Shown here: piece by piece, positions 225 to 64,000 of the stretch
How positions within the stretch are numbered: position 1 is the first letter of the stretch
How the letters are laid out: the number at the start of each line of letters is the position of its first letter
Source: Paenirhizobium selenitireducens ATCC BAA-1503
Lineage (GTDB): Bacteria; Pseudomonadota; Alphaproteobacteria; Rhizobiales; Rhizobiaceae
DNA length: 64,000 bases
Direction: 5' to 3'
Assembly (NCBI RefSeq): GCF_000518785.1
Contig: NZ_JAEG01000006.1
Coordinates: 124,001-188,000, forward strand
Notes under the pieces: generated by a model
Databases searched by the model: none
What the model was told of the DNA's origin: nothing
What the model saw: only the letters and a program-made list of their open reading frames with translations
Program-made: the position numbers and the translations under genes

Positions 225-638
225 TCAAACCTCCACCAGCGCGTCGAGCTCCGGCAGAAGCACGACGCTTTCCTGTTCGTTGGGATCTGTCCGGGCGATC
301 AGCGCCGTGCAGGGCGCGTTGGAGAGGTTCGCCGGCAGGTGCGGCACGCCGGCCGGGATGTACATCAGTTCCCCGGCATGCAGGATCACGTGGTTTTCCA
401 GCCGGTCGCCGTACCAGGTATGCGCCTGGCCCGACAGGCAGTAGATCGCCGTCTCGTGGTTCTCGTGCAGATGGGCCTTGGCTCTCGCGCCCGGCGGCAT
501 GGTCAGAAGGTGCATGCAGATGGCCTGCGAGCCGACCGTTTCGGCCGAAATGCCGGCGAAATAGCTCAGGCCCTGCTTGCCGTCATAGGTGCTTCCGGGC
601 CGAACGATCCGGCAGGTGGGTTTCAATGACGTATCCAT
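225..638 (-). CDS. Cupin-domain protein
   Basis: A 137-residue single-domain cupin. The metal-binding cupin motif 1 is visible around residues 55-75 (AHLHENHETAIYCLSG: two His, a Glu and the conserved Gly) and motif 2 around residues 89-101 (GELMYIPAGVPHLP with the final His). Such proteins are small beta-barrel enzymes or ligand sensors; the substrate is unknown. The ATG at 638 is chosen because GGAGGA lies about nine bases upstream; a longer open frame continues upstream but overlaps the divergent ABC gene. It is transcribed away from the ABC importer at 763-4672 and shares a 124-bp intergenic region with it, so a joint role in handling the imported compound is possible but inferred. Confidence 0.8.
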   Translation of the reverse strand: MDTSLKPTCRIVRPGSTYDGKQGLSYFAGISAETVGSQAICMHLLTMPPGARAKAHLHENHETAIYCLSGQAHTWYGDRLENHVILHAGELMYIPAGVPHLPANLSNAPCTALIARTDPNEQESVVLLPELDALVEV

Positions 639-762
639 GCTGGCACTCCTCCATGATCTCCGAAATTCCCGCAAAGTCCGATAGGCCGGCCCGCGCCGGC
701 CATGTATTGATAGTGTGCAAGAGGCTTGGCGCCTTTGCAAGAAAGCCCATAGGTTCCCATCG

Positions 763-1551
763 ATGACCGCTCCCTTTTCCGTCGTGTCCGCCAAGGACCT
801 CTGTCTCACCTTCCAGACGGGAGACGGGCCGGTCCACGCGCTGTCCAATGTCGATCTCGAGGTGAAGAAGGGCGACTTCGTCTCCTTCATCGGCCCCTCC
901 GGCTGCGGCAAGACCACCTTCCTGCGCGTCATCGCCGATCTCGAAAAACACACCTCGGGCACGATCACCGTCAACGGCATGACGCCGGAAAACGCCCGCA
1001 AGGACCGCTCCTACGGCTATGTCTTCCAGGCGGCGGCGCTCTATCCCTGGCGCACGATCGAAAAGAACATCGCCCTGCCTCTGGAGATCATGGGCTTTTC
1101 CAAGGAGGAGCAGAAGAAGCGGGTGGAGCAGACGCTGGAGCTCGTCAACCTCACCGGCTTCGGCAAGAAATTCCCCTGGCAGCTGTCGGGCGGCATGCAG
1201 CAGCGCGCCTCGATTGCCCGCGCGCTCGCCTTCGACGCCGACCTTCTGCTGATGGACGAGCCCTTCGGCGCGCTCGACGAAATCGTCCGCGACCATCTCA
1301 ATTCCGAACTGCTGAAACTCTGGGACCGCACCGACAAGACGATCTGCTTCGTCACCCATTCGATCCCGGAAGCGGTCTATCTGTCGACCAAGATCGTCGT
1401 CATGAGCCCCCGCCCCGGCCGCGTCACCGACATCATCGAATCGACGCTGCCACGCGAGCGCCCGCTGGAGATCCGCGAGACCCCGGAATTCCTCGCAATC
1501 GCCCACCGCGTCCGCGAGGGCCTGAAGGCGGGGCACTCTTATGAGGAATAG
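763..1551 (+). CDS. ABC transporter ATP-binding protein (nitrate/taurine/thiamine-precursor type)
   Basis: A 262-residue ATPase subunit of a NitT/TauT-type importer. Walker A GPSGCGKTT lies at residues 44-52, the signature LSGGMQQR near residue 145, Walker B LLLMDEPFGALDE just after, and the switch His in FVTHS. The ATG at 763 gives the usual N-terminus for the family (MTAPFSVVSAKDL); an ATG 48 bases upstream is in frame but less typical. It energises the two permeases at 1912 and 2793, which are separated from it by 360 bp of palindromic repeats. The binding protein at 3680 suggests an NMT1/THI5-like ligand such as a pyrimidine, but substrates of this family cannot be read from the ATPase. 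Confidence 0.88.
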   Translation: MTAPFSVVSAKDLCLTFQTGDGPVHALSNVDLEVKKGDFVSFIGPSGCGKTTFLRVIADLEKHTSGTITVNGMTPENARKDRSYGYVFQAAALYPWRTIEKNIALPLEIMGFSKEEQKKRVEQTLELVNLTGFGKKFPWQLSGGMQQRASIARALAFDADLLLMDEPFGALDEIVRDHLNSELLKLWDRTDKTICFVTHSIPEAVYLSTKIVVMSPRPGRVTDIIESTLPRERPLEIRETPEFLAIAHRVREGLKAGHSYEE

Positions 1552-1569
1552 TGTTTCCCTCTTCCACGC

Positions 1570-1693
1570 CATGAAGATGCCCCTCACCCTGACCCTCTCC
1601 CCGCAGGCGGGGAGAGGGAACGGCCACGGCGGTGCCACGCGTCCCTTCTCCCCGTCAAGACGGGGAGAAGGTGCCGGCAGGCGGATGAGGGGC
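1570..1693. repeat. Palindromic intergenic repeat, type 2
   Basis: Nested hairpins: CCTCTCCCCGC-AGG-CGGGGAGAGG near 1590-1615 and CTTCTCCCCGTC-AA-GACGGGGAGAAG near 1646-1671, framed by CCCCTCA..TGAGGGG outer arms. Related hairpins are at 25381-25438 and 60598-60723. Confidence 0.7.
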
Positions 1694-1723
1694 ACTGGAA
1701 TCTTCCACGTGGCAGAGAGGGTT

Positions 1724-1885
1724 ACCCCCCTCTGTCACTTCGTGACATCTCCCCCTCAAGGGGGGAGATCGGGAGCACACCGTTTCCGTTCGACCATCGC
1801 AAACCACGCCAGAGGAAGGGCGAGCGTCGTCCGCACATCGATCTCCCCCCTTGAGGGGGAGATGCCCGGCAGGGCAGAGGGGGGT
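1724..1885. repeat. Inverted pair of RIME-like units
   Basis: One unit in minus orientation (1724-1770, ACCCCCCTCTGTC..GGGGGGAGATC) faces one in plus orientation (1840-1885, GATCTCCCCCC..CAGAGGGGGGT), with about 70 bp between. The arrangement could fold into one long stem. The same paired layout occurs between urtE and urtD. Confidence 0.8.
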
Positions 1886-1911
1886 AAAAGCCTGAAGATC
1901 GGAGGCCGCCC

Positions 1912-2796
1912 ATGACCTCCCCCTCCCTCTTCCGCGACCGTATCCTGCCGGTCCTCACCGTCATCCTCGCCATCCTCGTCGTCTGGCACATCTTCGTCGT
2001 CTACCTCAACGCACCCTTCGTGCGCGACCAGGCGGCGCGGGCGGGGGAAGAGATCACCTTTTCCCAGGTGGTCGAGCGTACCTTTGCCCAGGAGCGGCCG
2101 GTGCTGCCCGCCCCGCACCAGATCTTCGTCGAACTGTGGGACACCACGGTGAACAAGGCGGTCACCTCCAAGCGCAGTCTCGTCTACCATGCCGGCGTCA
2201 CGCTTTCGGCGACCCTGCTCGGCTTCGTGATCGGCACCGTGCTCGGCATCCTGCTGGCCGTCGGCATCGTCCACAACCGGGCCATGGACCGGTCGCTGAT
2301 GCCCTGGGTGATCGCCAGCCAGACCATTCCGATTCTCGCCATCGCGCCGATGGTCATCGTCGTCCTGAACTCGGTCGGCATATCGGGCATCCTGCCCAAG
2401 GCGCTGATCTCGACCTATCTGTCCTTCTTCCCGATCGTCGTCGGCATGGTGAAGGGACTTAGAAGCCCCGACACCATTCTGCTCGACCTCATGCACACCT
2501 ATCATGCGAGCCCCTCCCAGACCTTCTGGAAGCTGCGGTGGCCGGCCTCGATGCCCTATCTCTTCACCTCGCTCAAGGTGGCGATCGCCATCTCGCTGCT
2601 CGGCGCCATCGTCGCCGAACTGCCGACCGGCGCCATTGCCGGCCTTGGCGCGCGGCTGCTCTCCGGCTCCTATTACGGCCAGACCATCCAGATCTGGGCG
2701 GCGCTGTTCATGGCCGCCGGCCTTGCCGCCATCCTGGTGTCGATCGTCGGCGTCGCCCACGCCCGGGTGCTCGCTCGCATGGGGGCCAAGCCATGA
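1912..2796 (+). CDS. ABC transporter permease 1 (BPD type)
   Basis: A 294-residue inner-membrane permease. An N-terminal membrane segment (about residues 10-30) is followed by an unusual hydrophilic stretch of about 40 residues, then the core of five segments. The coupling-helix region for the ATPase falls in LLDLMHTYHASPSQTFWKLRWPASMPYL (two-part EAA-like loop, about residues 193-220). Homologues are SsuC/TauC/ThiX-like. The ATG overlaps nothing upstream and is preceded by GGAGG. Its stop overlaps the start of the second permease (ATGA), so the two are translationally coupled and probably form a heterodimer, whereas most relatives are homodimers. Confidence 0.85.
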   Translation: MTSPSLFRDRILPVLTVILAILVVWHIFVVYLNAPFVRDQAARAGEEITFSQVVERTFAQERPVLPAPHQIFVELWDTTVNKAVTSKRSLVYHAGVTLSATLLGFVIGTVLGILLAVGIVHNRAMDRSLMPWVIASQTIPILAIAPMVIVVLNSVGISGILPKALISTYLSFFPIVVGMVKGLRSPDTILLDLMHTYHASPSQTFWKLRWPASMPYLFTSLKVAIAISLLGAIVAELPTGAIAGLGARLLSGSYYGQTIQIWAALFMAAGLAAILVSIVGVAHARVLARMGAKP

Positions 2797-3659
2797 ACGG
2801 ATATCTCGTCTTCGCCCTCGTCTTCTGGCTGTCCGCCTGGGGCCTCAACGAATGGCTGGTGCGCCGGACCTTCAAGGACCGCATGGTGCGCCGCATCGTC
2901 AACATCGCCGTGCCGCTGATCTTCGGGACGACGCTGCTGGTCATCTGGGAATGCCTGGTGCACGGCTTCAACATCCCCTCGATCCTGCTGCCGGCACCGT
3001 CGATGATCTGGGCCAGGCTCATTACCTCGGTGCCGACGCTGTGGGCCGATTTCCAGCAGACCTTCCTCAAGTCGGTGATCACCGGCTATGCGCTCGGCTG
3101 CGGCCTCGGCTTTGCCGTCGCCATCCTGGTCGACCGCTCGCCCTTCCTGCAAAAGGGCCTGCTGCCGATCGGCAATTTCGTCTCGGCCCTGCCGATGGTC
3201 GGCGTCGCGCCGATCATGGTCATGTGGTTCGGCTTCGACTGGCAGTCCAAGGTCGCCGTGGTGGTCATCATGACCTTCTTCCCCATGCTGGTGAACACCG
3301 TGCAGGGGCTGTCGGCCGCGAGCCACATGGAACGCGACCTGATGCGCACCTATGCGGCATCGTGGTGGCAGACGCTGGTGAAGCTTCGCCTGCCGGCCGC
3401 CTGGCCGTTCATCTTCAACGCGCTCAAGATCAATTCCACGCTGGCTCTGATCGGCGCGATCGTGGCGGAGTTCTTCGGCACCCCGATCGTCGGCATGGGG
3501 TTTCGCATCTCCACGGAAGTGGGGCGCAGCAATGTCGACATGGTCTGGGCGGAGATTGCGGTTGCCGCGCTCGCCGGATCGATCTTTTATGGGGTGGTGG
3601 CGCTCGCCGAGCGCGCCGTCACCTTCTGGCATCCGTCTGTCCGTGGTGGACAGGCGTAA
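2793..3659 (+). CDS. ABC transporter permease 2 (BPD type)
   Basis: A 288-residue permease, start ATG at 2793 overlapping the previous stop by four bases. It has six predicted membrane segments and an EAA-type loop around LMRTYAASWWQTLVKLRLPAAWPF (about residues 183-206) that docks on the ATPase. It is clearly related to permease 1 but divergent, fitting a heterodimeric channel. The binding protein starts 20 bases after its stop, so subunits are co-transcribed. The compound transported is not known; relatives carry sulfonates, nitrate or pyrimidine precursors. Confidence 0.87.
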   Translation: MNGYLVFALVFWLSAWGLNEWLVRRTFKDRMVRRIVNIAVPLIFGTTLLVIWECLVHGFNIPSILLPAPSMIWARLITSVPTLWADFQQTFLKSVITGYALGCGLGFAVAILVDRSPFLQKGLLPIGNFVSALPMVGVAPIMVMWFGFDWQSKVAVVVIMTFFPMLVNTVQGLSAASHMERDLMRTYAASWWQTLVKLRLPAAWPFIFNALKINSTLALIGAIVAEFFGTPIVGMGFRISTEVGRSNVDMVWAEIAVAALAGSIFYGVVALAERAVTFWHPSVRGGQA

Positions 3660-3679
3660 ATAAGAAAGAGGGAACCAAA

Positions 3680-4672
3680 ATGACATTGAAACTCGCATCC
3701 CTGCTGCTGGCCGGCGCCGTCTCGCTGACCGCCATGCAGGCGGCCGCTGCCGACAAGGTGACGCTGCAGCTGAAATGGGTCACCCAGGCCCAGTTCGCCG
3801 GCTACTACGTCGCCAAGGACAAGGGCTTCTACGAAGCCGAAGGTCTCGACGTCGAAATCAAGCCGGGCGGCCCGGACATCGCCCCCCCGCAGGTTCTCGC
3901 CGGCGGCGGCGCCGACGTGATCGTCGACTGGATGCCGTCCGCTCTCGCCACCCGCGAAAAGGGCGTTCCGCTGGTCAACATCGCCCAGCCGTTCAAGGCC
4001 TCGGGCATGATGCTGACCTGCCTCAAGGAAACCGGCATCACCAAGCCGGAAGACTTCAAGGGCAAGACGCTCGGCGTCTGGTTCTTCGGCAATGAATATC
4101 CGTTCCTGTCCTGGATGGCGACGCTCGGCATCAAGACCGACGGCTCGGAAGGTGGCGTCACCGTCCTCAAGCAGGGCTTCAACGTCGACCCGCTGCTGCA
4201 GAAGCAGGCCGCCTGCATCTCGACCATGACCTACAACGAATACTGGCAGGTCATCGACGCCGGCATCAAGGCCGAAGACCTGGTGACGTTCCAGTACGAG
4301 AAGGAAGGCGTAGCCACCCTCGAAGACGGCCTCTACGTCCTCGAGGATTCGCTCAAGGATGCCGCCTTCAAGGAAAAGATGGTCAAGTTCGTCCGCGCCT
4401 CGATGAAGGGCTGGAAGTGGGCCGAAGAGAACCCGGATGACGCAGCCGGGATCGTCCTCGAAAACGACGCCTCGGGCGCCCAGACAGAAACCCACCAGAA
4501 GCGCATGATGGGCGAAGTCGCCAAGCTCACCGCCGGCTCGAACGGCGCGCTCGACGAAGCCGACTACAAGCGCACCGTCGCCACCCTGCTCGGCGGCGGT
4601 TCCGACCCGGTCATCACCAAGGAGCCGGTCGGCGCCTACACGCTCGACATCACCAACGAAGCCCTTAAGTAA
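3680..4672 (+). CDS. ABC substrate-binding protein, NMT1/THI5-like
   Basis: A 330-residue periplasmic binding protein. A Sec signal peptide (residues 1-24, ending AMQAAAA) is followed by the family hallmark LQLKWVTQAQFAGYYVAKD and GFYEAEGLDVEI (residues 28-60). NMT1/THI5-like proteins bind pyrimidine precursors of thiamine, riboflavin-like or other small heterocycles. A GAGGGA ribosome site precedes the ATG. It closes the operon and is followed by a strong terminator at 4698-4727. A distant relative with a single-permease partner is at 59570, so the window carries two importers of the same class. Confidence 0.87.
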   Translation: MTLKLASLLLAGAVSLTAMQAAAADKVTLQLKWVTQAQFAGYYVAKDKGFYEAEGLDVEIKPGGPDIAPPQVLAGGGADVIVDWMPSALATREKGVPLVNIAQPFKASGMMLTCLKETGITKPEDFKGKTLGVWFFGNEYPFLSWMATLGIKTDGSEGGVTVLKQGFNVDPLLQKQAACISTMTYNEYWQVIDAGIKAEDLVTFQYEKEGVATLEDGLYVLEDSLKDAAFKEKMVKFVRASMKGWKWAEENPDDAAGIVLENDASGAQTETHQKRMMGEVAKLTAGSNGALDEADYKRTVATLLGGGSDPVITKEPVGAYTLDITNEALK

Positions 4673-55078: not shown

Positions 55079-56377
55079 TTAGTCTTCAAATGGATCAGTC
55101 ACAAGTATGGTGTCATCGCGCTCCGGGCTGGTCGAAAGCAGCGCCACCGGCGCGCCGATCAGTTCCTCGACCTGGCGAACATATTTGATCGCCTGAGCCG
55201 GGAGATCGGCCCATTTGCGGGCGCCGACCGTCGATTCCTTCCAGCCTTCGAGCGTGATGTAGATCGGCTCGACACGGGCCTGCGCCGCCTGCGAAGCCGG
55301 CAGATGCTCGATCTCCTCGCCGTCAAGCTTGTAGCCGACGCAGATCTTCAGCTCTTCGAGACCGTCGAGAACATCGAGCTTGGTGAGCGCGATGCCGGTG
55401 ATTCCGTTGGTCGCGACCGACTGGCGCACCAGCGCGGCATCGAACCAGCCGCAGCGACGCTTGCGGCCCGTCACGGTGCCGAACTCATGGCCCTTCTCGC
55501 CAAGGAACTGGCCGATTTCGTCGGTCAGTTCGGTCGGGAACGGGCCCTCGCCGACGCGGGTCGTATAGGCCTTGGTGATGCCGAGAATATAGCCGAGCGC
55601 GCCCGGGCCCATGCCCGAGCCGGCAGCGGCCTGGCCGGCCACCGTGTTCGACGAGGTGACGAACGGATAGGTGCCATGGTCGATATCGAGCAGCGAGCCC
55701 TGGGCGCCTTCGAACAGGATGCGCGAACCCTTGCGGCGTTCCTTGTCCAGCATCAGCCAGACGGTGTCGCGGAACGGCAGCACGCGATCGGCGACGGAGG
55801 TCAGTTCCTCCATGATCGTCTTGTGCTCGACTTCGGGCGCGCCGAAGCCGCGACGAAGGGCGTTGTGATGGGTCAGGATGCGCTCGACCTTGCCTTCCAG
55901 CGCGTCGATGTCGGCGAGGTCCATCAGGCGAATCGCCCGACGGCCGACCTTGTCTTCATAGGCCGGGCCGATGCCGCGGCGGGTGGTGCCGATCTTGGTG
56001 CCGCTGTTGGTCGCCGCATCCTCGCGCATGCCGTCGAGCTCACGGTGCAGCGACAGGATGAGCGTCGCATTGTCGGCGATTCGCAAGTTGTCCGGAGTGA
56101 CGGTGACGCCCTGCGCCTTCAGCCGCTCGATTTCGGCCAGCAGTGCATGCGGATCGACGACGACGCCGTTGCCGATCACGGCCTTTTTGCCCGGACGTAC
56201 GACGCCGGAGGGCAGCAGCGACAGCTTGTAGCTGATGCCGTCGATCACCAGGGTGTGGCCGGCATTATGGCCGCCCTGGAACCGGACGACGATATCCGCC
56301 CGCTCGGAGAGCCAGTCGACGATCTTGCCCTTGCCCTCGTCTCCCCACTGCGAACCCACAACCACGACATTCGTCAT
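55079..56377 (-). CDS. purA: Adenylosuccinate synthetase
   Basis: A 432-residue enzyme making adenylosuccinate from IMP, aspartate and GTP in AMP synthesis. Motifs are [18 protein letters not shown] (8-25; P-loop and catalytic Asp), GHNAGHTL (about 38-45), [14 protein letters not shown] (about 127-140) and [14 protein letters not shown] (about 299-312). Normal length. ATG at 56377. Confidence 0.97.
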
Positions 56378-56575
56378 TTCGAAATCCTGTCTATCGCGCA
56401 AACGCTCTGCGCCTTATCCAAACCCGCGCATCTATACTGTGTTGTTTTTATGAAATCGACCCGTTTATGAGAGGAGAAACGGCTTTTTGCGTGACAAAGC
56501 ACGGCCCCTCACCTATCCCATGCGGCAAATCAACGCCTCCCCGCGTCCACCCTCCCAACCTGTCGGTGAAATCCC

Positions 56576-57466
56576 TTGCTTCTCAGAGCCTATTTCTTTC
56601 TGACCGTCGCAACGCTTTTCTGGGGTGGAAATACCGTGGTCGGCAAGCTCGCCGTCGGTCATGTCAGCCCGATGGTGCTGAATTTCTCCCGCTGGACGAT
56701 CGCCCTCCTCATCATCTGCGCCATCTCGGTTCCGCAACTGAAGAAGGACTGGCCGACGCTCAAGCGCAACTGGTTGCTGATGCTCGCCTTCGGCGCGATC
56801 GGCTACACCGCGTTCAACGGCTTTCTCTATACCGCGCTCAAATACACCAGTGCCGTCAATGGAGCGATTGAGCAGGGCGGCATTCCCGTGCTGATCTTCA
56901 TTCTCAACTTCCTGCTGTTCCGCATTCCAGTCTCGTTCGTCCAGATCATCGGTTTCGCCATCAGCTTCGTCGGCGTGGCGCTGACGGCGACCCGCGGCGA
57001 CATCAACGTGCTCCTGTCGCTGTCGATGAACTTCGGCGATGCGCTGCTGCTGCTCGCGGTCGTCGCCTATGCGGTCTATACCATCGCGCTGCGCTGGCGG
57101 CCGCCGATCCACTGGAAGAGCATGATGGCGGGTTCGGCTCTCGGCGCCTCGCTGTCCGCCATCCCGCTGGTCATCTGGGAGGAAACCAACGGCAACCTGA
57201 TCCTGCCGGACCTGATGGGCTGGGGTATCATCGCCTATGCCGCGCTTCTGCCCTCGCTGATCTCGCAGGTCTTCTACATCATGGGCGTGGAAGGCATCGG
57301 CGCGAATCGCGCCGGCCTCTTCATCAACCTCGTTCCGGTGTTCGGCACCCTGCTGTCGCTCTCCCTGCTCGGCGAGGCGCTCCAGCCGCTGCATCTGATC
57401 GCTCTGGCGCTGGTGCTCGGCGGCATTGCCATCGCCGAATGGGGAAAGCCGAAGCTGAAGACCTGA
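56576..57466 (+). CDS. EamA-family (DMT) transporter
   Basis: A 296-residue protein with ten membrane segments in two EamA repeats (LTVATLFWGGNTVVGKLAVG at 9-28; second repeat near GDALLLLAVVAYAVYTIALR). Drug/metabolite transporters usually export amino acids or metabolites. The start appears to be TTG at 56576, placed just before the first segment; the ribosome site is weak and no in-frame ATG lies upstream. Unrelated divergent neighbour: purA. Confidence 0.88.
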   Translation: MLLRAYFFLTVATLFWGGNTVVGKLAVGHVSPMVLNFSRWTIALLIICAISVPQLKKDWPTLKRNWLLMLAFGAIGYTAFNGFLYTALKYTSAVNGAIEQGGIPVLIFILNFLLFRIPVSFVQIIGFAISFVGVALTATRGDINVLLSLSMNFGDALLLLAVVAYAVYTIALRWRPPIHWKSMMAGSALGASLSAIPLVIWEETNGNLILPDLMGWGIIAYAALLPSLISQVFYIMGVEGIGANRAGLFINLVPVFGTLLSLSLLGEALQPLHLIALALVLGGIAIAEWGKPKLKT

Positions 57467-57545
57467 GGCGGCGCTCAGGCCGCACGCTCACTTTGGCTAG
57501 GCCATACCCTGCCGCTCGCTTTAAGGCAGCGCCCTGCACGCAATA

Positions 57546-57571
57546 TGATGCTTTTCCAAGCCCGCATTATT
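57546..57571 (+). promoter_or_regulatory. Shared motif upstream of creatininase gene
   Basis: TGATGCTTTTCCAAGC at 57546-57561 matches TGATGCTTTTCAAAGC at 59477-59492 in 15 of 16 positions; both stand 50-80 bp before a plus-strand gene of this locus. GCATTATT at 57564-57571 also recurs at 59418-59425. Probably the operator of a common regulator. Confidence 0.6.
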
Positions 57572-57611
57572 GCCTACTCCATTGGATGAGGCTCACATGA
57601 GGGAAACAGCC

Positions 57612-58409
57612 ATGGCCAAGCCATTCTTCTGGAACGAACTGAACACCGCCGACTTCGCCGGGCTTTCCCCTGAAACGACCGTCGCCATCCTGCCGATCGC
57701 CTCGACCGAACAGCATGGCCCCCATCTGCCGATCGCCACCGACGTCGCCATCGCCAACGGCATGCTGGCGGAACTGAAAAACCAGCGTCCCGACGATCTC
57801 GACTTCCTCGTCCTGCCGACCCAGGAGATCGGCAAGGCCAATGAACACATCTACGGTCCGGGCACCCTGTCCTTCGGCCCCGAGATCCTGATCCCCGCCT
57901 GGACGGCGATCGGCACCAAGGTGGCAGAGGCCGGCATCCGCAAGATGGTCATCGTCAATTCGCATGGCGGCAATGTCGATGTGATGAGCATCGTCGCCCG
58001 CGAGCTGCGTGTGCGCCACCAGATGGCCGTGGTCTCCACCCAGTGGGGCCGCTTCGGCAATCCGGACGGCATGATCTCCGAACACGAGAGCCGCTACGGC
58101 ATCCATGGCGGCGAGGTCGAGACCTCGCTGATGCTCCATTTCCGCCCCGACCTCGTGCGCATGGACAAGGCCGAGAACTTCGTCTCGCGCGCCGAAGAGA
58201 TGAAGGCCAGCTCGAAATATCTGACCCCGCTGCCGCCGCATTCGCTCGCCTGGATCGCCCACGACCTCAATCCCAACGGCGTGGTCGGCGATGCCTCCAA
58301 GGGCACGGCGGAGAAGGGCGAACAGATCTGCAAGCACCAGGTGAAGGGCTTCGTCGAACTGCTGCGCGACCTCACGCGCTATCCGCTATCGAACCTCTAC
58401 ACGCGCTAA
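57612..58409 (+). CDS. Creatininase-family amidohydrolase
   Basis: A 265-residue metal-dependent hydrolase. Metal ligands are visible: Glu and His in STEQHGPHLPIATD (about 35-48), His in VIVNSHGGNVDVM (about 115-127) and Glu in GIHGGEVETSLM (about 162-173). The family includes creatininase (cyclic amide opening), the formamidopyrimidine deformylase ArfB and MftE. The ATG at 57612 is chosen for AGGGAA upstream; an ATG at 57597 is also in frame. Its stop overlaps that of the convergent LysR gene by four bases. A role in opening or deformylating an imported heterocycle is inferred. Confidence 0.88.
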   Translation: MAKPFFWNELNTADFAGLSPETTVAILPIASTEQHGPHLPIATDVAIANGMLAELKNQRPDDLDFLVLPTQEIGKANEHIYGPGTLSFGPEILIPAWTAIGTKVAEAGIRKMVIVNSHGGNVDVMSIVARELRVRHQMAVVSTQWGRFGNPDGMISEHESRYGIHGGEVETSLMLHFRPDLVRMDKAENFVSRAEEMKASSKYLTPLPPHSLAWIAHDLNPNGVVGDASKGTAEKGEQICKHQVKGFVELLRDLTRYPLSNLYTR

Positions 58410-59386
58410 TCCTCGTCGCGGGCCGCAAGGGTCCGCTCGCCCGGCTTTTCGCTCGGCGGGATATGGCCCTTGCCCTGCAGTTCGAGAACCAGCACCAGCA
58501 GTTCCTGCATCAGGTATTCGACGAAGAGGCTGGTCGCCGCATCGAGCGGCGCCCGCGCCCGGGCAAAGAGCTTCATCGGCTGATGACGCAATTGCCCTTC
58601 GAGCAGCGGCCGGAACATCAGCTCGCCGGCACGGCACTCGCTGATCACGTCGAGCGGGTTGAGCAGCGTCAGGCCGGCCCCGCATTTGACCAGTTGCTTC
58701 ATCAACTCGGACGAATTGGTCTCCAGCACCGGCTCGACCGGCAGCGGCACCGGCGCCAGCGCCAGGTCGATGATGTTGCGCAGGCTGGTGCCGGACTGGG
58801 CGAGCACCAGTTTCTCCTGCACCACGTCGACGAGGTCGATCGGCCCGGCCTCGTGCGACAACGGATGGCCGGGCGGCAGTACGACGCCGACCGGGACGTC
58901 GAAATTGGCGAGCGTCCGGATGCCGGGGGTGGCGGGAATGTTGAAACCGAGGCCGATATCGACCTCGCCGGTCAGCACCGGATTGATGGTCGTGGAACCG
59001 CCGTCATTGCGCAACTGGATACGGACCCGCGGATGCGCTTCGAGAAAGCGCGCCAGAATCAGCGGCAGCGGCCCGGAAGCGAGACCGACCGTCGTCACCA
59101 GCGTCACCTTGCCGGCCTGCGGCATTTTCAGGCCGCGGATGCGGGATTCGAGCTTTTCGTAGTTCTTCAGCACGTCGCGGATGTGTTCGACGCAAAGCTC
59201 GCCGGCCGCCGTCAGCCGAAGACCGCGCGGCAGCCGCTCGAACAGCGGCGCACCGAGTTCTTCCTCGAGCGCCAGGATCTGCCGGTTGACGGCCGACGAG
59301 GCGACGTTGAGTCGGGCTGCGGCCTTGCGGATCGAGCCGCAACGGACGATTTCGTTGATGTACTGGAGTTTTCGCGAATGCAGCAT
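58406..59386 (-). CDS. LysR-type transcriptional regulator
   Basis: A 326-residue regulator. The HTH is at the N-terminus (IVRCGSIRKAAARLNVASSA and VNRQILALEEELGAPLFERL, about 13-52), followed by a periplasmic-binding-like effector domain (about 90-300). The ATG at 59386 is the standard start; an ATG five codons upstream is possible. It lies between the creatininase and ABC genes and is divergent from the importer, the classical layout for a LysR controlling its neighbours. The shared motif in front of both transcription units supports this. Confidence 0.92.
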   Translation of the reverse strand: MLHSRKLQYINEIVRCGSIRKAAARLNVASSAVNRQILALEEELGAPLFERLPRGLRLTAAGELCVEHIRDVLKNYEKLESRIRGLKMPQAGKVTLVTTVGLASGPLPLILARFLEAHPRVRIQLRNDGGSTTINPVLTGEVDIGLGFNIPATPGIRTLANFDVPVGVVLPPGHPLSHEAGPIDLVDVVQEKLVLAQSGTSLRNIIDLALAPVPLPVEPVLETNSSELMKQLVKCGAGLTLLNPLDVISECRAGELMFRPLLEGQLRHQPMKLFARARAPLDAATSLFVEYLMQELLVLVLELQGKGHIPPSEKPGERTLAARDED

Positions 59387-59406
59387 GGAGCACCATTGCA
59401 TAAAAT

Positions 59407-59492
59407 TTGTTCAACAAGCATTATTTGTGCACCAAACTCAGTGCGATGCAAAAAAGGCATCAATGCGGACGAATTTTGATGCTTTTCAAAGC
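59407..59492. promoter_or_regulatory. Divergent operator region of LysR/ABC genes
   Basis: Three signals: a perfect palindrome TTGTTCAACAA (59407-59417), an inverted repeat GATGC-N7-GCATC (59445-59461, the size of a LysR T-N11-A box) and TGATGCTTTTCAAAGC (59477-59492) shared with the creatininase promoter. They fill the 183-bp gap between LysR and the binding-protein gene. Confidence 0.6.
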
Positions 59493-59569
59493 GCAAGGCA
59501 ACCGCTCAAATGAAGGAAATGGAGCCCCATGGCGGAGTTCCAGACCAAGGACAGGGGAACCCGATCGAC

Positions 59570-60583
59570 ATGCGCGACACTCTCAGCAAGACCACCTTCC
59601 TCGCCCTTCTTGGGCTCGGAACGGCGCTTTCAGCTCAGCAGGCCTATGCTCTCGATGAAGTCAGCTACGGCACCAACTGGCTCGCCCAGGCCGAGCATGG
59701 CGGCTTCTACCAGGCTGTCGCCGACGGCACCTATGAGAAACACGGCCTCAAGGTCACCATCGTCCAGGGCGGACCGAACGCCGCCAACCGCTCGCTTCTG
59801 ATCGCCGGCAAGGTCGAATTCTACATGGGCAGCCCACTCGGCGAGATGGACGCCGTGAAGGAAGGCATCCCGCTGGTCGACGTCGCCGCGATCTTCCAGA
59901 AGGATCCGCAGGTCCTGCTCGCCCATCCCGACCAGGGCGTGGAAAAGTTCGCCGACCTCGCCAAGCTCGACGCGATCTTCATGGGCAAGGACGGCTACGT
60001 CACCTATTTCGAGTGGATGAAGAAGAACTACGAGGGCTTCAAGGACGAGCAGTACAAGCCCTACACCTTCAACCCCGCGCCCTTCATCGCCGATCCGAAA
60101 TCCGCGCAGCAGGGCTACCTGACCTCGGAACCCTTCGAGATCGAGAAGCAGGCCGGCTGGGCACCGAAGGTCTTCCTGCTCGCCGACAACGGCTACAACC
60201 CCTATTCGACGATGATCACCACGACCGCCACCATGGTCGAGACCAAGTCCGACGTGGTTCAGCGCTTCGTCGATGCCTCTCTCGAAGGCTGGTACAACTA
60301 CCTCTACGGCGACAACAAGGCTGCCAACGACCTCATCAAGAAGGACAATCCGGAAATGACGGATGGCCAGATCGAGTACTCGATCGCCAAGATGAAGGAA
60401 TACGGCATCCTCGAATCCGGCGAAGCGCTCGACAAGGGCATCGGCTGCATGACTGAAGCGCGCTACAAGAAGTTCTTCGACGACATGGTTTCGATCGGTG
60501 TCCAGACCGCCGACCTCGACTACACCAAGGCGTTCACCACCAAGTACGTCTGCAAGGGCGTCGGCATGGCGCTGAAGAAGTAA
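59570..60583 (+). CDS. ABC substrate-binding protein, NMT1/THI5-like
   Basis: A 337-residue periplasmic binding protein with a signal peptide (FLALLGLGTALSAQQAYA, about 9-26). The family pattern YGTNWLAQAEHGGFYQAVAD (about 32-51) and a Gly-rich IVQGGPNAANRSLLIAG (about 63-79) are present. It is related to ThiY-type proteins that bind pyrimidine precursors. ATG at 59570 with AGGGGA upstream. It is followed by palindromic repeats, then the ATPase and permease genes. Only distantly similar to the binding protein at 3680. Confidence 0.87.
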   Translation: MRDTLSKTTFLALLGLGTALSAQQAYALDEVSYGTNWLAQAEHGGFYQAVADGTYEKHGLKVTIVQGGPNAANRSLLIAGKVEFYMGSPLGEMDAVKEGIPLVDVAAIFQKDPQVLLAHPDQGVEKFADLAKLDAIFMGKDGYVTYFEWMKKNYEGFKDEQYKPYTFNPAPFIADPKSAQQGYLTSEPFEIEKQAGWAPKVFLLADNGYNPYSTMITTTATMVETKSDVVQRFVDASLEGWYNYLYGDNKAANDLIKKDNPEMTDGQIEYSIAKMKEYGILESGEALDKGIGCMTEARYKKFFDDMVSIGVQTADLDYTKAFTTKYVCKGVGMALKK

Positions 60584-60597
60584 GGCAAGCCGGCCGC

Positions 60598-60723
60598 AGC
60601 ACTTTCTTCTCCCCGGCGGGGAGAAAGTGCTGAGCGGATGCGAGGCGATGAGGGGGAGGCCGGAGGCCTTGCTGACGCCCCCCTCATCCGGTCCTTCGGA
60701 CCACCTCTCCCCGATGGGGAGAA
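60598..60723. repeat. Palindromic repeats between SBP and ATPase genes
   Basis: AGCACTTTC..AGTGCT with CTCCCC-GGC-GGGGAG inside (60598-60631), then a second-type unit with GGTCC-TTC-GGACC and TCTCCCC-GAT-GGGGAGA (about 60688-60722). The latter is nearly the same as 25396-25438. They may lower expression of the later genes relative to the binding protein. Confidence 0.75.
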
Positions 60724-60770
60724 GCGGGAATACGCCGATCCCGACCAACAAGAAGCAATCAAGGCCCGCA

Positions 60771-61619
60771 ATGACACCTTCAGACGCCGAGACGGCAACC
60801 TCCTCCGCCCAGAACGGCGCATCGCCGACCGACGCGCGGCGGCGCCCGCTCGTCGTCATGGATCAGGTGACGAAGATGTTCTCGAGCGGCACCGTGGCGC
60901 TCTCCGACATGTCGCTCACCGTCAACGGCGGCGAGTTCGTCAGCCTGCTCGGCCCGTCGGGCTGCGGCAAGTCGACGGCGCTCAGGATCATCGCCGGGCT
61001 TGGCGACGTCTCCACCGGCACGATCGACTGGCCAAGCTCGCGCATCAATTCCAAGGGCCTGCCGGAGGGCGACATTTCCTTCGTCTTCCAGGAGCCGACG
61101 CTGATGCCGTGGCAGACGGTGTTCGGCAATGTCCACCTGCCGCTCAAGCTCAAGGGCGTCTCCAAGGCAGCCGCCCGCGACGAGATCATGGCGACGCTTG
61201 CGACCGTCGGCCTCAAGGATTTCGCTGAGGCCTATCCGCGCGAACTCTCCGGCGGCATGAAGATGCGCGTCTCGATCGCCCGCGCGCTGGTGACCAAGCC
61301 GAAGCTGCTTTTGATGGACGAGCCGTTCGCCGCGCTCGACGAGATCACCCGGCAGAAGCTCAACGACGACGTGCTTCGGCTGTGGAAGCAGACCGGCATT
61401 ACCGTCATTTTCGTCACCCATTCCGTCTTCGAGAGCGCCTATCTCTCGAGCCGCATCGTCGTGATGAAGTCGCGGCCCGGCCGGGTGCACGCCGACTTCC
61501 CGCTGCACACCAGCCTCGAACGCGACGCCCATTACCGAACCTCGGAAGAATATCGCCAGGCCTGTGAGACGGTGTCGGAAACACTGCTGGAAGCCATGGG
61601 CGGAGAGGACGCACACTGA
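60771..61619 (+). CDS. ABC transporter ATP-binding protein
   Basis: A 282-residue NitT/TauT-type ATPase with a 25-residue Ser/Ala-rich N-terminal extension. Walker A is GPSGCGKSTALRI (61-73), signature LSGGMKMRVSIARALVTKP (about 160-178), Walker B LLLMDEPFAALDE (about 180-192) and VTHSVFE (switch). ATG at 60771; the frame upstream has no family similarity. Its stop overlaps the permease start (TGATG). Confidence 0.9.
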   Translation: MTPSDAETATSSAQNGASPTDARRRPLVVMDQVTKMFSSGTVALSDMSLTVNGGEFVSLLGPSGCGKSTALRIIAGLGDVSTGTIDWPSSRINSKGLPEGDISFVFQEPTLMPWQTVFGNVHLPLKLKGVSKAAARDEIMATLATVGLKDFAEAYPRELSGGMKMRVSIARALVTKPKLLLMDEPFAALDEITRQKLNDDVLRLWKQTGITVIFVTHSVFESAYLSSRIVVMKSRPGRVHADFPLHTSLERDAHYRTSEEYRQACETVSETLLEAMGGEDAH

Positions 61620-62458
61620 TGACCACGAGCCCCCGCTCCCCCGTTGCCCTGAAACCTGCCATGCCTTCGCGAACCCGCGAGACGCTGTTGAAGATCCTCG
61701 TGCCGGTCCTTGTCGTGTTCGCCCTCCTTGCGCTGTGGCACATCGGCGTGACCGTCTCGGGCGTGCCGCAATATATCCTGCCGAGCCCGCTTGCCGCGGC
61801 GAACGCGCTGGTCAAGGACTGGGGCACGCTGTCGCCGGCCCTCTGGGTGACCACCAAGATTACGCTCGCCTCGCTGGCGCTGGCGCTGATCGGCGGTGTC
61901 GGCATTGCCGTCTTCCTCGTCCAGTCGCGCTGGATCGAACTCGCCTTCTATCCGATCACCGTCATCCTGCAGGTGACCCCGATCGTCGCGGTCGCCCCGC
62001 TCATCCTCATCTACGCGCCATCGACCCAGGTGGCGCTGTTGATCTGCGCCTTCCTCGTCGCCTTCTTCCCGATCCTGTCGAACATGGTGCAGGGCCTGAA
62101 GAGCGTCGACCATAACCTGCTGAACCTCTTCGACCTCTACGGCGCCTCGCGACTTCAGACGCTGCTGTACCTGAAGCTGCCGGCTTCGCTTCCCTATTTC
62201 ATGACCGGGCTTCGGATCGGCGGCGGCCTCGCCCTGATCGCCGCCGTGGTCGCCGAATTTGCCGCAGGCTCGGCCGGCGCCGGTTCCGGCCTCGCCTTCC
62301 GCCTGCTGGAGGCCCAGTACCGCCTCAATATTCCCCGGCTGTTTGCCGCCCTCTTCCTGCTCTCCTGCCTCGGCGTGCTGATCTTCGCCGTCACCTCGTT
62401 CATTTCCTGGCTGACCCTGCACCGTTGGCACGAAAGCAGCCTGAGAAGAGAGAATTGA
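61619..62458 (+). CDS. ABC transporter permease
   Basis: A 279-residue permease with six segments. The EAA-like loop is in NLFDLYGASRLQTLLYLKLP (about 163-182) and ends with the usual SLPYFMTGLRI. The ATG overlaps the ATPase stop and its own stop overlaps the amidohydrolase start (TGATG), so importer and enzyme are translationally coupled. A single permease is encoded, expected to form a homodimer. Confidence 0.9.
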   Translation: MTTSPRSPVALKPAMPSRTRETLLKILVPVLVVFALLALWHIGVTVSGVPQYILPSPLAAANALVKDWGTLSPALWVTTKITLASLALALIGGVGIAVFLVQSRWIELAFYPITVILQVTPIVAVAPLILIYAPSTQVALLICAFLVAFFPILSNMVQGLKSVDHNLLNLFDLYGASRLQTLLYLKLPASLPYFMTGLRIGGGLALIAAVVAEFAAGSAGAGSGLAFRLLEAQYRLNIPRLFAALFLLSCLGVLIFAVTSFISWLTLHRWHESSLRREN

Positions 62459-63774
62459 TGCCGTTTCCCGCATTTTCCCTGCCCGAAGCCGACCGCTATG
62501 AGCTCAGGAACGCCACCCTGCCGGCGGTCGCCGTCGACGGCTTTGCAGGACCCGTCGGGCGCGAGGGCCTGATCGATGCGGATATCGTCATCGCAGGCGG
62601 CAAGATCGAAGCCGTCCTGCCGGCCGGTACGGCTCCACAGGATCTGCCGGCGGCCGATCTCGACGGCGGCATGGCATGGCCGTGCTTCGCCGACATGCAC
62701 ACCCATCTCGACAAGGGCCATATCTGGGACCGCCGGCCTAACCCGACGGGTGATTTCTTCGGCGCGCTCGATGCGGTCCGCACCGACCGCGAGGCCTGCT
62801 GGTCGGCTGCCGACGTGCGCACCCGCATGGAATTCTCGCTGAAGACGGCCTATGCGCACGGCACGGGCCTCATCCGCACCCATCTCGACAGTCTGCCGCC
62901 GCAGCACCGCATTTCCTTCGAGGTCTTCTCCGAACTGCGCGACGCCTGGAAGGACAGGATCACCCTCCAGGCCGTCGCCCTCTTCCCCCTCGACATGATC
63001 ACCGACGAGGCATTCTTCGGCGACCTGACCGACGTGGTCGCCAGCCATGGCGGGCTGCTCGGCGGGGTGACCTACCTGATGCCCGACCTTGAGGCCCATC
63101 TCGACAAGCTGTTCCGCACCGCCTCCGAACGCGGCCTCGACATCGACCTGCATGTCGACGAGACCCAGGACCACGAAGTCCTGACCCTCAAGACCATTGC
63201 CGAGGCGAAGATCCGCAACGGCTTTGAAGGTGCCGTCACCGTCGGCCATTGCTGCTCGCTCGCCCGCCAGAATGACGAGCTTGCCAAGGCGACGATCGAT
63301 GTCGTGGCGAAAGCCGGGCTCTCCGTCGTATCCTTGCCGATGTGCAACATGTACCTGCAGGACCGGGCGCCGAACCGCACCCCGCGCTATCGCGGCGTCA
63401 CGCTGTTCCACGAACTGGCGGCGGCCGGCATCCCGACCGCGATCTCCTCCGACAATACCCGCGACCCGTTCTACGCCTATGGCGACCTCGACCCGGTCGA
63501 AGTGTTCCGCGAGGGCGTGCGCATCCTGCATCTCGACCATCCGCTCGACGAGGCAGCGCGCGTCGTCACCCGCACGCCGGCCGATATTCTCGGCAGCGCC
63601 GACCACGGGCGCATCGCCGCCGGCCTCCCCGCCGACCTCGTGCTGTTTTCGGCACGGCGCTGGAGCGAATTCCTTTCCCGTCCGCAGGCTGACCGCATCG
63701 TTGTGCGGAATGGCAAGGGCATCGACCGTAGCCTGCCGGATTATCGTGACCTGGACCCGCTGATGAAAGACTGA
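62458..63774 (+). CDS. Cytosine-deaminase-like amidohydrolase
   Basis: A 438-residue metal-dependent amidohydrolase. Ligands of the single-metal subtype are present: HxH in ADMHTHLDKGHIWD (about 79-92), His-x-x-Glu in DLHVDETQDHE (about 230-240), His in VTVGHCCSLA (about 260-269) and Asp in SSDNTRDPFYAYGDLDP (about 329-345). Cytosine deaminase (CodA), creatinine deaminase and AtzC-type enzymes belong here. It probably hydrolyses an imine or amide of a nitrogen ring. The start overlaps the permease stop, so substrate uptake and conversion are coupled. Not a known pathway to me. Confidence 0.88.
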   Translation: MPFPAFSLPEADRYELRNATLPAVAVDGFAGPVGREGLIDADIVIAGGKIEAVLPAGTAPQDLPAADLDGGMAWPCFADMHTHLDKGHIWDRRPNPTGDFFGALDAVRTDREACWSAADVRTRMEFSLKTAYAHGTGLIRTHLDSLPPQHRISFEVFSELRDAWKDRITLQAVALFPLDMITDEAFFGDLTDVVASHGGLLGGVTYLMPDLEAHLDKLFRTASERGLDIDLHVDETQDHEVLTLKTIAEAKIRNGFEGAVTVGHCCSLARQNDELAKATIDVVAKAGLSVVSLPMCNMYLQDRAPNRTPRYRGVTLFHELAAAGIPTAISSDNTRDPFYAYGDLDPVEVFREGVRILHLDHPLDEAARVVTRTPADILGSADHGRIAAGLPADLVLFSARRWSEFLSRPQADRIVVRNGKGIDRSLPDYRDLDPLMKD

Positions 63775-63776
63775 CC

Positions 63777-64000
63777 ATGCCGGACTACCAGCAGATCAAG
63801 AAGGAACTCGAGGGCATCGCGGTTGAGGACAATCCGGCGCTCGTGAAGCAGAAGAGCCGCGACTTCTATTGGTACTCGCCGATCCTGAAAGCCCAGCTCG
63901 ACAACGTCGTCGGCGACCTCGTCGTTTCGCCGAAGAACGAAGAGGAAGTGATCCGTACGCTGAAGGTCGCCTATGCCCATGGCGTGCCGGTCACGGCGCG
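63777..64000 (+). CDS. FAD-linked oxidase, 5' part only
   Basis: The first 74 codons of a gene cut by the window end. SRDFYWYSPILKAQLDN and VVSPKNEEEVIRTLKVAYAH (about 50-69) followed by GVPVTAR match the start of the FAD-binding type 4 (GlcD/D-lactate dehydrogenase-like) domain. It begins two bases after the amidohydrolase stop, so it belongs to the same operon and probably oxidises a product of that pathway. The rest of the gene is outside the window. Confidence 0.75.
   Translation, partial: MPDYQQIKKELEGIAVEDNPALVKQKSRDFYWYSPILKAQLDNVVGDLVVSPKNEEEVIRTLKVAYAHGVPVTA

Follow-up and report, generated by a model that had tools for sequence, protein, structure and literature searches.

A conserved gene module of Paenirhizobium selenitireducens and other Proteobacteria with a likely role in pterin uptake and catabolism

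This study examined a 64,000-base stretch of the Paenirhizobium selenitireducens ATCC BAA-1503 genome (hereafter the window), which corresponds to bases 124001-188000 of the 500-kb contig C4 in a 5.0-Mb genome (G000), and deals with the importer and catabolic gene module that begins near the end of the window and continues past it. A 20-kb part of C4 (locus L009), spanning window positions 56000-64000 and 12 kb beyond the window end, was analyzed. The module begins with a plus-strand gene for a creatininase-family hydrolase (57612-58409; PF02633, E 1.9e-72), followed on the minus strand by a LysR-type regulator gene (58406-59401; PF00126 and PF03466), which is divergent from the importer operon. 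On the plus strand, this operon encodes an NMT1/THI5-type periplasmic binding protein (59570-60583; PF09084, E 9.8e-24), the ATPase (60771-61619; PF00005, E 4e-33) and permease (61619-62458; PF00528, E 8.9e-23) of an ATP-binding cassette (ABC) transporter, and an amidohydrolase (62458-63774), which is named a cytosine deaminase by the NCBIfam model NF005759 (675 bits against a cut-off of 403).

The next plus-strand gene, for a flavin adenine dinucleotide (FAD)-binding oxygenase, starts at 63777 and is cut by the window end at 64000, with 224 of its 1407 bases inside the window and 1183 further on the contig (whole gene, G000:C4:187777-189183). Extension of the analysis past 64000, as suggested in the first-pass annotation made from the sequence letters, completed this gene and added three others: a flavodoxin-fold NAD(P)H reductase gene on the plus strand (G000:C4:189382-189963), an LtrA gene that comes next in the source genome, and a Rid-family gene on the minus strand (G000:C4:192730-193119), about 3 kb past the reductase gene. 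The genes listed in that annotation, namely those of the creatininase-family hydrolase, the amidohydrolase, the FAD-linked oxidase, the LysR regulator and the NMT1/THI5-type importer, were all found. The single-base overlaps it described were also confirmed, since the ATPase and permease genes share base 61619 and the permease and amidohydrolase genes share base 62458. Between the binding-protein and ATPase genes, at window positions of about 60603-60740, is a dispersed repeat, about 125 bases long, that occurs in dozens of partial or full copies in the genome.

The gene neighborhood was compared across genomes by scanning named genomes with the FAD protein. Among the matches listed, the best 80 of 140 relatives were taken as a set of Rhizobiaceae loci, in which eight genes were treated as the core, namely those of the creatininase-family protein, the LysR regulator, the binding protein, the ATPase, the permease, the amidohydrolase, the FAD oxygenase and the reductase. 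All eight were present in 76 of the 80 loci, with identical order and orientation in 76/76, and the remaining four loci were cut by contig ends. Counted singly, the LysR gene was found in 77/80 loci and the Rid gene in 72/80. The most similar loci, with 98-99% identity in the FAD protein, are labeled Rhizobium sp. The conservation of the core gene set is beyond chance, as 76/80 loci were intact, compared with 11/80 that carried LtrA.

Across the phylum, the FAD protein was detected in 32 of 398 genomes (E at most 1e-80), and NF005759 scored above its cut-off in 27/398. The FAD gene was also carried by 26 of these 27 genomes, and the two matches were 2 to 162 bases apart in 26/26; the sole NF005759 genome without an FAD gene match was G095. 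Co-occurrence in other genomes, the absence of which the first-pass annotation had named as evidence against its reading, therefore holds both in the related loci and in these NF005759-FAD pairs.

Rearranged and sometimes partial gene sets were found in other alpha-, beta- and gammaproteobacteria, including Paroceanicella, Nitratireductor, Alloyangia, Rahnella, Klebsiella, Ruegeria, Pantoea, Mameliella and a Comamonadaceae plasmid. A distant set of 26 loci, of which 20 lie in genomes and 6 in plasmid records, was chosen by matches to the FAD protein, and a match was counted anywhere in the locus if it covered at least half of the query. By this tally, the amidohydrolase was found in 24 loci, the Rid protein in 23, the ATPase and permease in 23, the creatininase-family protein in 22, the binding protein in 22 and the reductase in 19. 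No matching importer was found in the Ruegeria locus and no matching binding protein in the Nitratireductor locus. The flavodoxin-fold reductase was not found in the Rahnella, Pantoea and Klebsiella loci, which carry a PDR/VanB reductase gene instead, and one locus (G379) carries both types. The two reductases may therefore be interchangeable as electron suppliers.

Evidence on the substrate came from relatives of two of the enzymes. The FAD protein matches PDB 6V42 over nearly its full length (693 bits, 64.3% identity over 457 amino acids), and that entry bears the title "Crystal structure of the flavin oxygenase with cofactor bound involved in folate catabolism". A tree of 30 rows places 6V42 inside a supported seven-row clade (96/95) with the FAD proteins of six module loci (L128 and L130-L134), and each of these loci has genes for the creatininase-family protein, the importer, the amidohydrolase and the Rid protein. 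AlphaFold gave a poor model for the FAD protein (mean predicted local distance difference test score, pLDDT, 57; predicted template modelling score, pTM, 0.57), and the homology with 6V42 is based on the sequence and not on the model. By analogy with the flavin oxygenase 6V42/6V43, whose folate role is taken from the title of 6V42, the oxygenation of a folate-derived pteridine is a candidate role for the module FAD protein. The oxygenase of the E. coli rut uracil pathway presumably belongs to a different family from the module FAD oxygenase.

The module amidohydrolase is homologous to the E. coli cytosine deaminase CodA, and catalytic residues (HxH, His, Glu, His, Asp) are common to both. The HxH, His, Glu and His residues were present in 106/106 rows and the Asp in 105/106, the exception being the frame-disrupted L126. 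The first-pass annotation had stated that the metal ligands of both hydrolases were intact; this stands for the amidohydrolase and only in part for the creatininase-family protein, as described below. In contrast to the catalytic residues, the pocket differs from that of CodA. The residue aligned with Gln156 of CodA (in its FPQ motif) is not Gln in 106/106 rows and is mostly replaced by a hydrophobic residue, the Asp313-Asp314 pair reads Asp-Asn, and Trp319 is replaced by Phe, the last two changes in 105/106 rows with the same frame-disrupted exception. Gln156 and Asp314 are residues of the CodA substrate pocket. In a 42-row tree, 25 rows were split with 100/100 support from CodA and 16 other homologues, and all 17 rows on the CodA side keep the glutamine. 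The 25-row side comprises 20 module rows, the proteins of G379 and G512, and three proteins from outside modules; the L126 sequence was left as found, and the tree used instead a copy in a second record (L158) whose frame is intact. Several distant module amidohydrolases fell below the NF005759 cut-off. The name "cytosine deaminase" looks wrong for this clade.

A better candidate function is provided by the pterin deaminase of Variovorax sp. F1, which was cloned and reported to have 399 amino acids and 37.0% identity to the pterin deaminase Arad3529 of A. radiobacter (You et al. 2022, PMC9513972). Its gene starts with MKLEAVR, as translated from the printed primer, and an "endoribonuclease" gene lies downstream (PMC9513972). 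The amidohydrolase of G512 has 398 amino acids, starts with MKLQALR and has immediately downstream a Rid gene, whose Pfam family name is Endoribonuclease L-PSP. It was located by protein search and then compared with the printed primer, of which 17/21 bases match; it is 36.6-37.7% identical over 355 amino acids to three module amidohydrolases of Rhizobium rhizogenes. The R. rhizogenes module amidohydrolase may be Arad3529 itself. In G379, a genus-mate of G512, the amidohydrolase-Rid pair lies in one 16-kb locus with importer, FAD, reductase and creatininase-family genes. In size, gene start, downstream Rid-type gene and identity level, the Variovorax enzyme matches the betaproteobacterial-type member on the module side of the tree. 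Used as a search pattern with up to 2 mismatches, the printed primer matched 33/250 genomes of the family, and no listed site was the G512 deaminase start; with up to 4 mismatches allowed, the second printed primer did not match at the Rid gene that lies downstream, and it matched one place each in L026 and L030. From this likely orthology, pterin deaminase is the likely best function for the module amidohydrolase. The Variovorax paper names genes for the first steps of folate degradation only, does not use the term "gene cluster" and, in the passages considered, leaves the steps past deamination undescribed (PMC9513972).

The creatininase-family protein scored below the cut-offs of all four NCBIfam models that it matched (creatininase, MftE, IolN and ArfB), with 93 bits for the creatininase model TIGR04448 against a cut-off of 235. 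Its creatininase metal residues Glu, His, Asp and His are kept, and the HYEN stretch reads HGGN, so that the glutamate there is absent; we take this glutamate to be Glu122, a metal ligand of creatininase. The protein is 43.6% identical over 243 amino acids to a second PF02633 protein of the same genome (G000:C4:416135-416830; L154, L210), which is encoded near a CobW gene and is probably, by sequence and context, the riboflavin formamidase BrbF. BrbF is a creatininase-family enzyme of riboflavin synthesis, is encoded near a CobW gene in rhizobia and deformylates a 5-formamido-6-aminopyrimidinone (PMC9478397). The likeness lies in the common family and in the 44% identity of the CobW-adjacent protein to the module protein. 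The difference is that BrbF serves biosynthesis and has a phosphorylated formamidopyrimidine as its substrate, whereas the module protein, a paralogue, is linked with an importer. An oxidatively opened pyrazine ring would give an N-acyl diaminopyrimidine similar to the BrbF substrate, which is the basis for the hydrolysis step proposed here.

Concerning the Rid protein, serine takes the place of the deaminase arginine (RidA position 105) in 106/106 rows, a count that includes several loci twice, and this arginine is present in both RidA and RutC of E. coli. Rid proteins without the position-105 arginine were reported to have no detected deaminase activity (PMC8113886). In the rut pathway as described there, a flavin oxygenase, a hydrolase, a Rid protein and a reductase open a pyrimidine for nitrogen, which resembles the module gene set; the arginine of RutC differs from the serine of the module Rid proteins. 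The usual enamine role is unsupported for the module Rid protein because the arginine is replaced by serine, and a simple RidA-type enamine-hydrolysis step was dropped for this reason.

The binding protein belongs to the NMT1 family and showed weak matches to ThiY, THI5 and 4NMY (E 6e-5 to 6e-4). A candidate LysR operator lies in the gap between the LysR and binding-protein genes as a conserved block (59445-59491, no strand assigned) with GATGC/GCATC half-sites at 59445, 59457 and 59478. In the comparison of 78 sequences of this gap (the window and 77 loci), the mean identity to the window base was 0.92 within 59447-59491, compared with 0.55 for the other 123 intergenic positions, and GCATCAA-N12-TTGATGC occurred in 50/78 sequences. 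Promoter and terminator scans of the same gap found nothing. As the first-pass annotation had noted for the THI-box, no Rfam family, the thiamine pyrophosphate (TPP) element included, was matched at the gathering score anywhere in L009 (20 kb). Window positions 225-4672 encode another NMT1-type ABC importer beside a cupin gene, with an ATPase (757-1551), two permeases (1912-2796 and 2793-3659) and a binding protein (3680-4672).

Taken together, the gene content suggests that the locus is an operon for the uptake and catabolism of a pterin, the pteridine of folate, a reading to which we assign a probability of about 0.73. A pterin is a fused 2-amino-4-oxopyrimidine. This class was chosen as the substrate because relatives of both the FAD enzyme and the amidohydrolase are tied to folate or pterin catabolism, and these relatives support both the deamination of a pterin and a flavin-oxygenase step in the breakdown of folate. 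The analysis itself shows the gene content, the synteny, the placement in clades and the changes of residues. In the proposed mechanism, the NMT1-type ABC importer would bring in a pterin, with the 59570 protein as the putative pterin binder, and the amidohydrolase would take off the 2-amino group to leave a lumazine-type dione. The FAD oxygenase would then attack the pyrazine ring, possibly with the NAD(P)H reductase as the electron donor, and the creatininase-family protein, by analogy with BrbF, may cleave the resulting N-acyl or amide bond on the aminopyrimidine. The Rid protein would act somewhere in the pathway, and the LysR regulator may control the operon via the conserved intergenic block. 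We infer this import substrate, the order of ring opening, the roles of the creatininase-family protein, reductase and regulator, and the use of the released nitrogen from the gene set. The first-pass annotation had proposed the import, deamination and oxidation of a nitrogen heterocycle; this general scheme fits the gene set, and its "aminopyrimidine" comes near to a pterin, whereas its candidates creatinine, cytosine and thiamine pyrimidine are disfavored. Its caution that conserved orthologues might already belong to a known pathway applies in part, through the folate-linked relatives of the two enzymes.

Several observations weigh against this reading. The folate link of 6V42 comes solely from its PDB title, and no open paper on 6V42 was found in the open-licence literature. 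The Variovorax enzyme was likened to the G512 protein by gene start, length, neighbor and identity level, and G512 shows only the amidohydrolase-Rid pair within the 15 kb examined. Moreover, support is poor (89/41) for the 12-row group that contains the G379/G512 pair, so that the placement of this pair among its module relatives is tentative. Whether the CodA Gln156 equivalent counts as lost turns on a one-column difference between alignments, and a Gln lies two residues on in 21/106 rows. The Km of the Variovorax deaminase for pteroate is 1.5 mM (PMC9513972), and the natural substrate may therefore differ. A clade member on the atrazine plasmid pADP-1 (L156, 8941-10272) lies near cyanuric-acid genes without the module, and clade amidohydrolases in G095 (L192) and G107 (L208) have no adjoining FAD gene match; therefore, the amidohydrolase clade may not be pterin-only. 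Among the distant loci, 2/26 lack a detected amidohydrolase and 4/26 a creatininase-family gene. In addition, the arginine-less Rid protein misfits a simple enamine step in all 106 rows, and a folate carboxypeptidase is absent from the gene names in the annotated module neighborhoods.

The alternative that survives best, although it is unlikely, is that the module breaks down a different bicyclic 2-amino-4-oxo ring system, for example an oxidized purine, with pterins as side substrates. The Rahnella and Klebsiella modules (L148 and L158) adjoin genes for a PRK12393 amidohydrolase, a second NMT1-like binding protein and a 2OG-Fe oxygenase, and the next best model of the PRK12393 protein is 8-oxoguanine deaminase, below the cut-off of that model; the millimolar Km of the Variovorax enzyme for pteroate also fits. 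However, an allantoin-type gene is named only in Nitratireductor among the annotated module neighborhoods, and the title of 6V42 names folate. The extra genes in Rahnella and Klebsiella perhaps represent a second branch for pterins or purines.

The catabolism of thiamine pyrimidine (4-amino-5-hydroxymethyl-2-methylpyrimidine), through ThiY-like import, C4 deamination, oxidation of the hydroxymethyl group and ring opening, is still less probable. By sequence, the binding protein has ThiY, THI5 and 4NMY as its solved relatives, and a mostly hydrophobic residue in place of the CodA Gln156 would suit a 2-methyl instead of a 2-carbonyl group. Against this, those matches are weak, L009 yielded no TPP element at the gathering score, none of the annotated module neighborhoods lists a thiamine gene, and the two enzymes whose relatives are informative both point toward folate or pterins. 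The use of creatinine or cytosine by a creatininase and a creatinine/cytosine deaminase, which has only the family names in its favor, is very improbable and was dropped on the TIGR04448 score, the HGGN stretch, the changed pocket residues and the tree side separate from CodA. Overall, the substrate is likely a pterin rather than creatinine, cytosine or thiamine pyrimidine.

No description of the full module was found in the open-licence PMC literature, although it may be described in a subscription article on 6V42. The novelty is limited because two of the steps already have known relatives. At somewhat less than even odds, we tentatively propose that the module represents a complete lower pathway for the pteridine ring, with dedicated import, deamination, flavin-driven pyrazine opening, creatininase-family hydrolysis and an arginine-less Rid step that would be new for its subfamily, which occurs in diverse Proteobacteria and is partly mislabeled as "cytosine deaminase". 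The pterin reading supplies a substrate class that can be tested for a set of genes which many Proteobacteria carry under the labels cytosine deaminase, creatininase and FAD-binding oxidoreductase. It also puts forward a candidate pterin importer and a possible catabolic function of a creatininase-family protein, and it prompts the question of how an arginine-less Rid protein may serve in such an operon.

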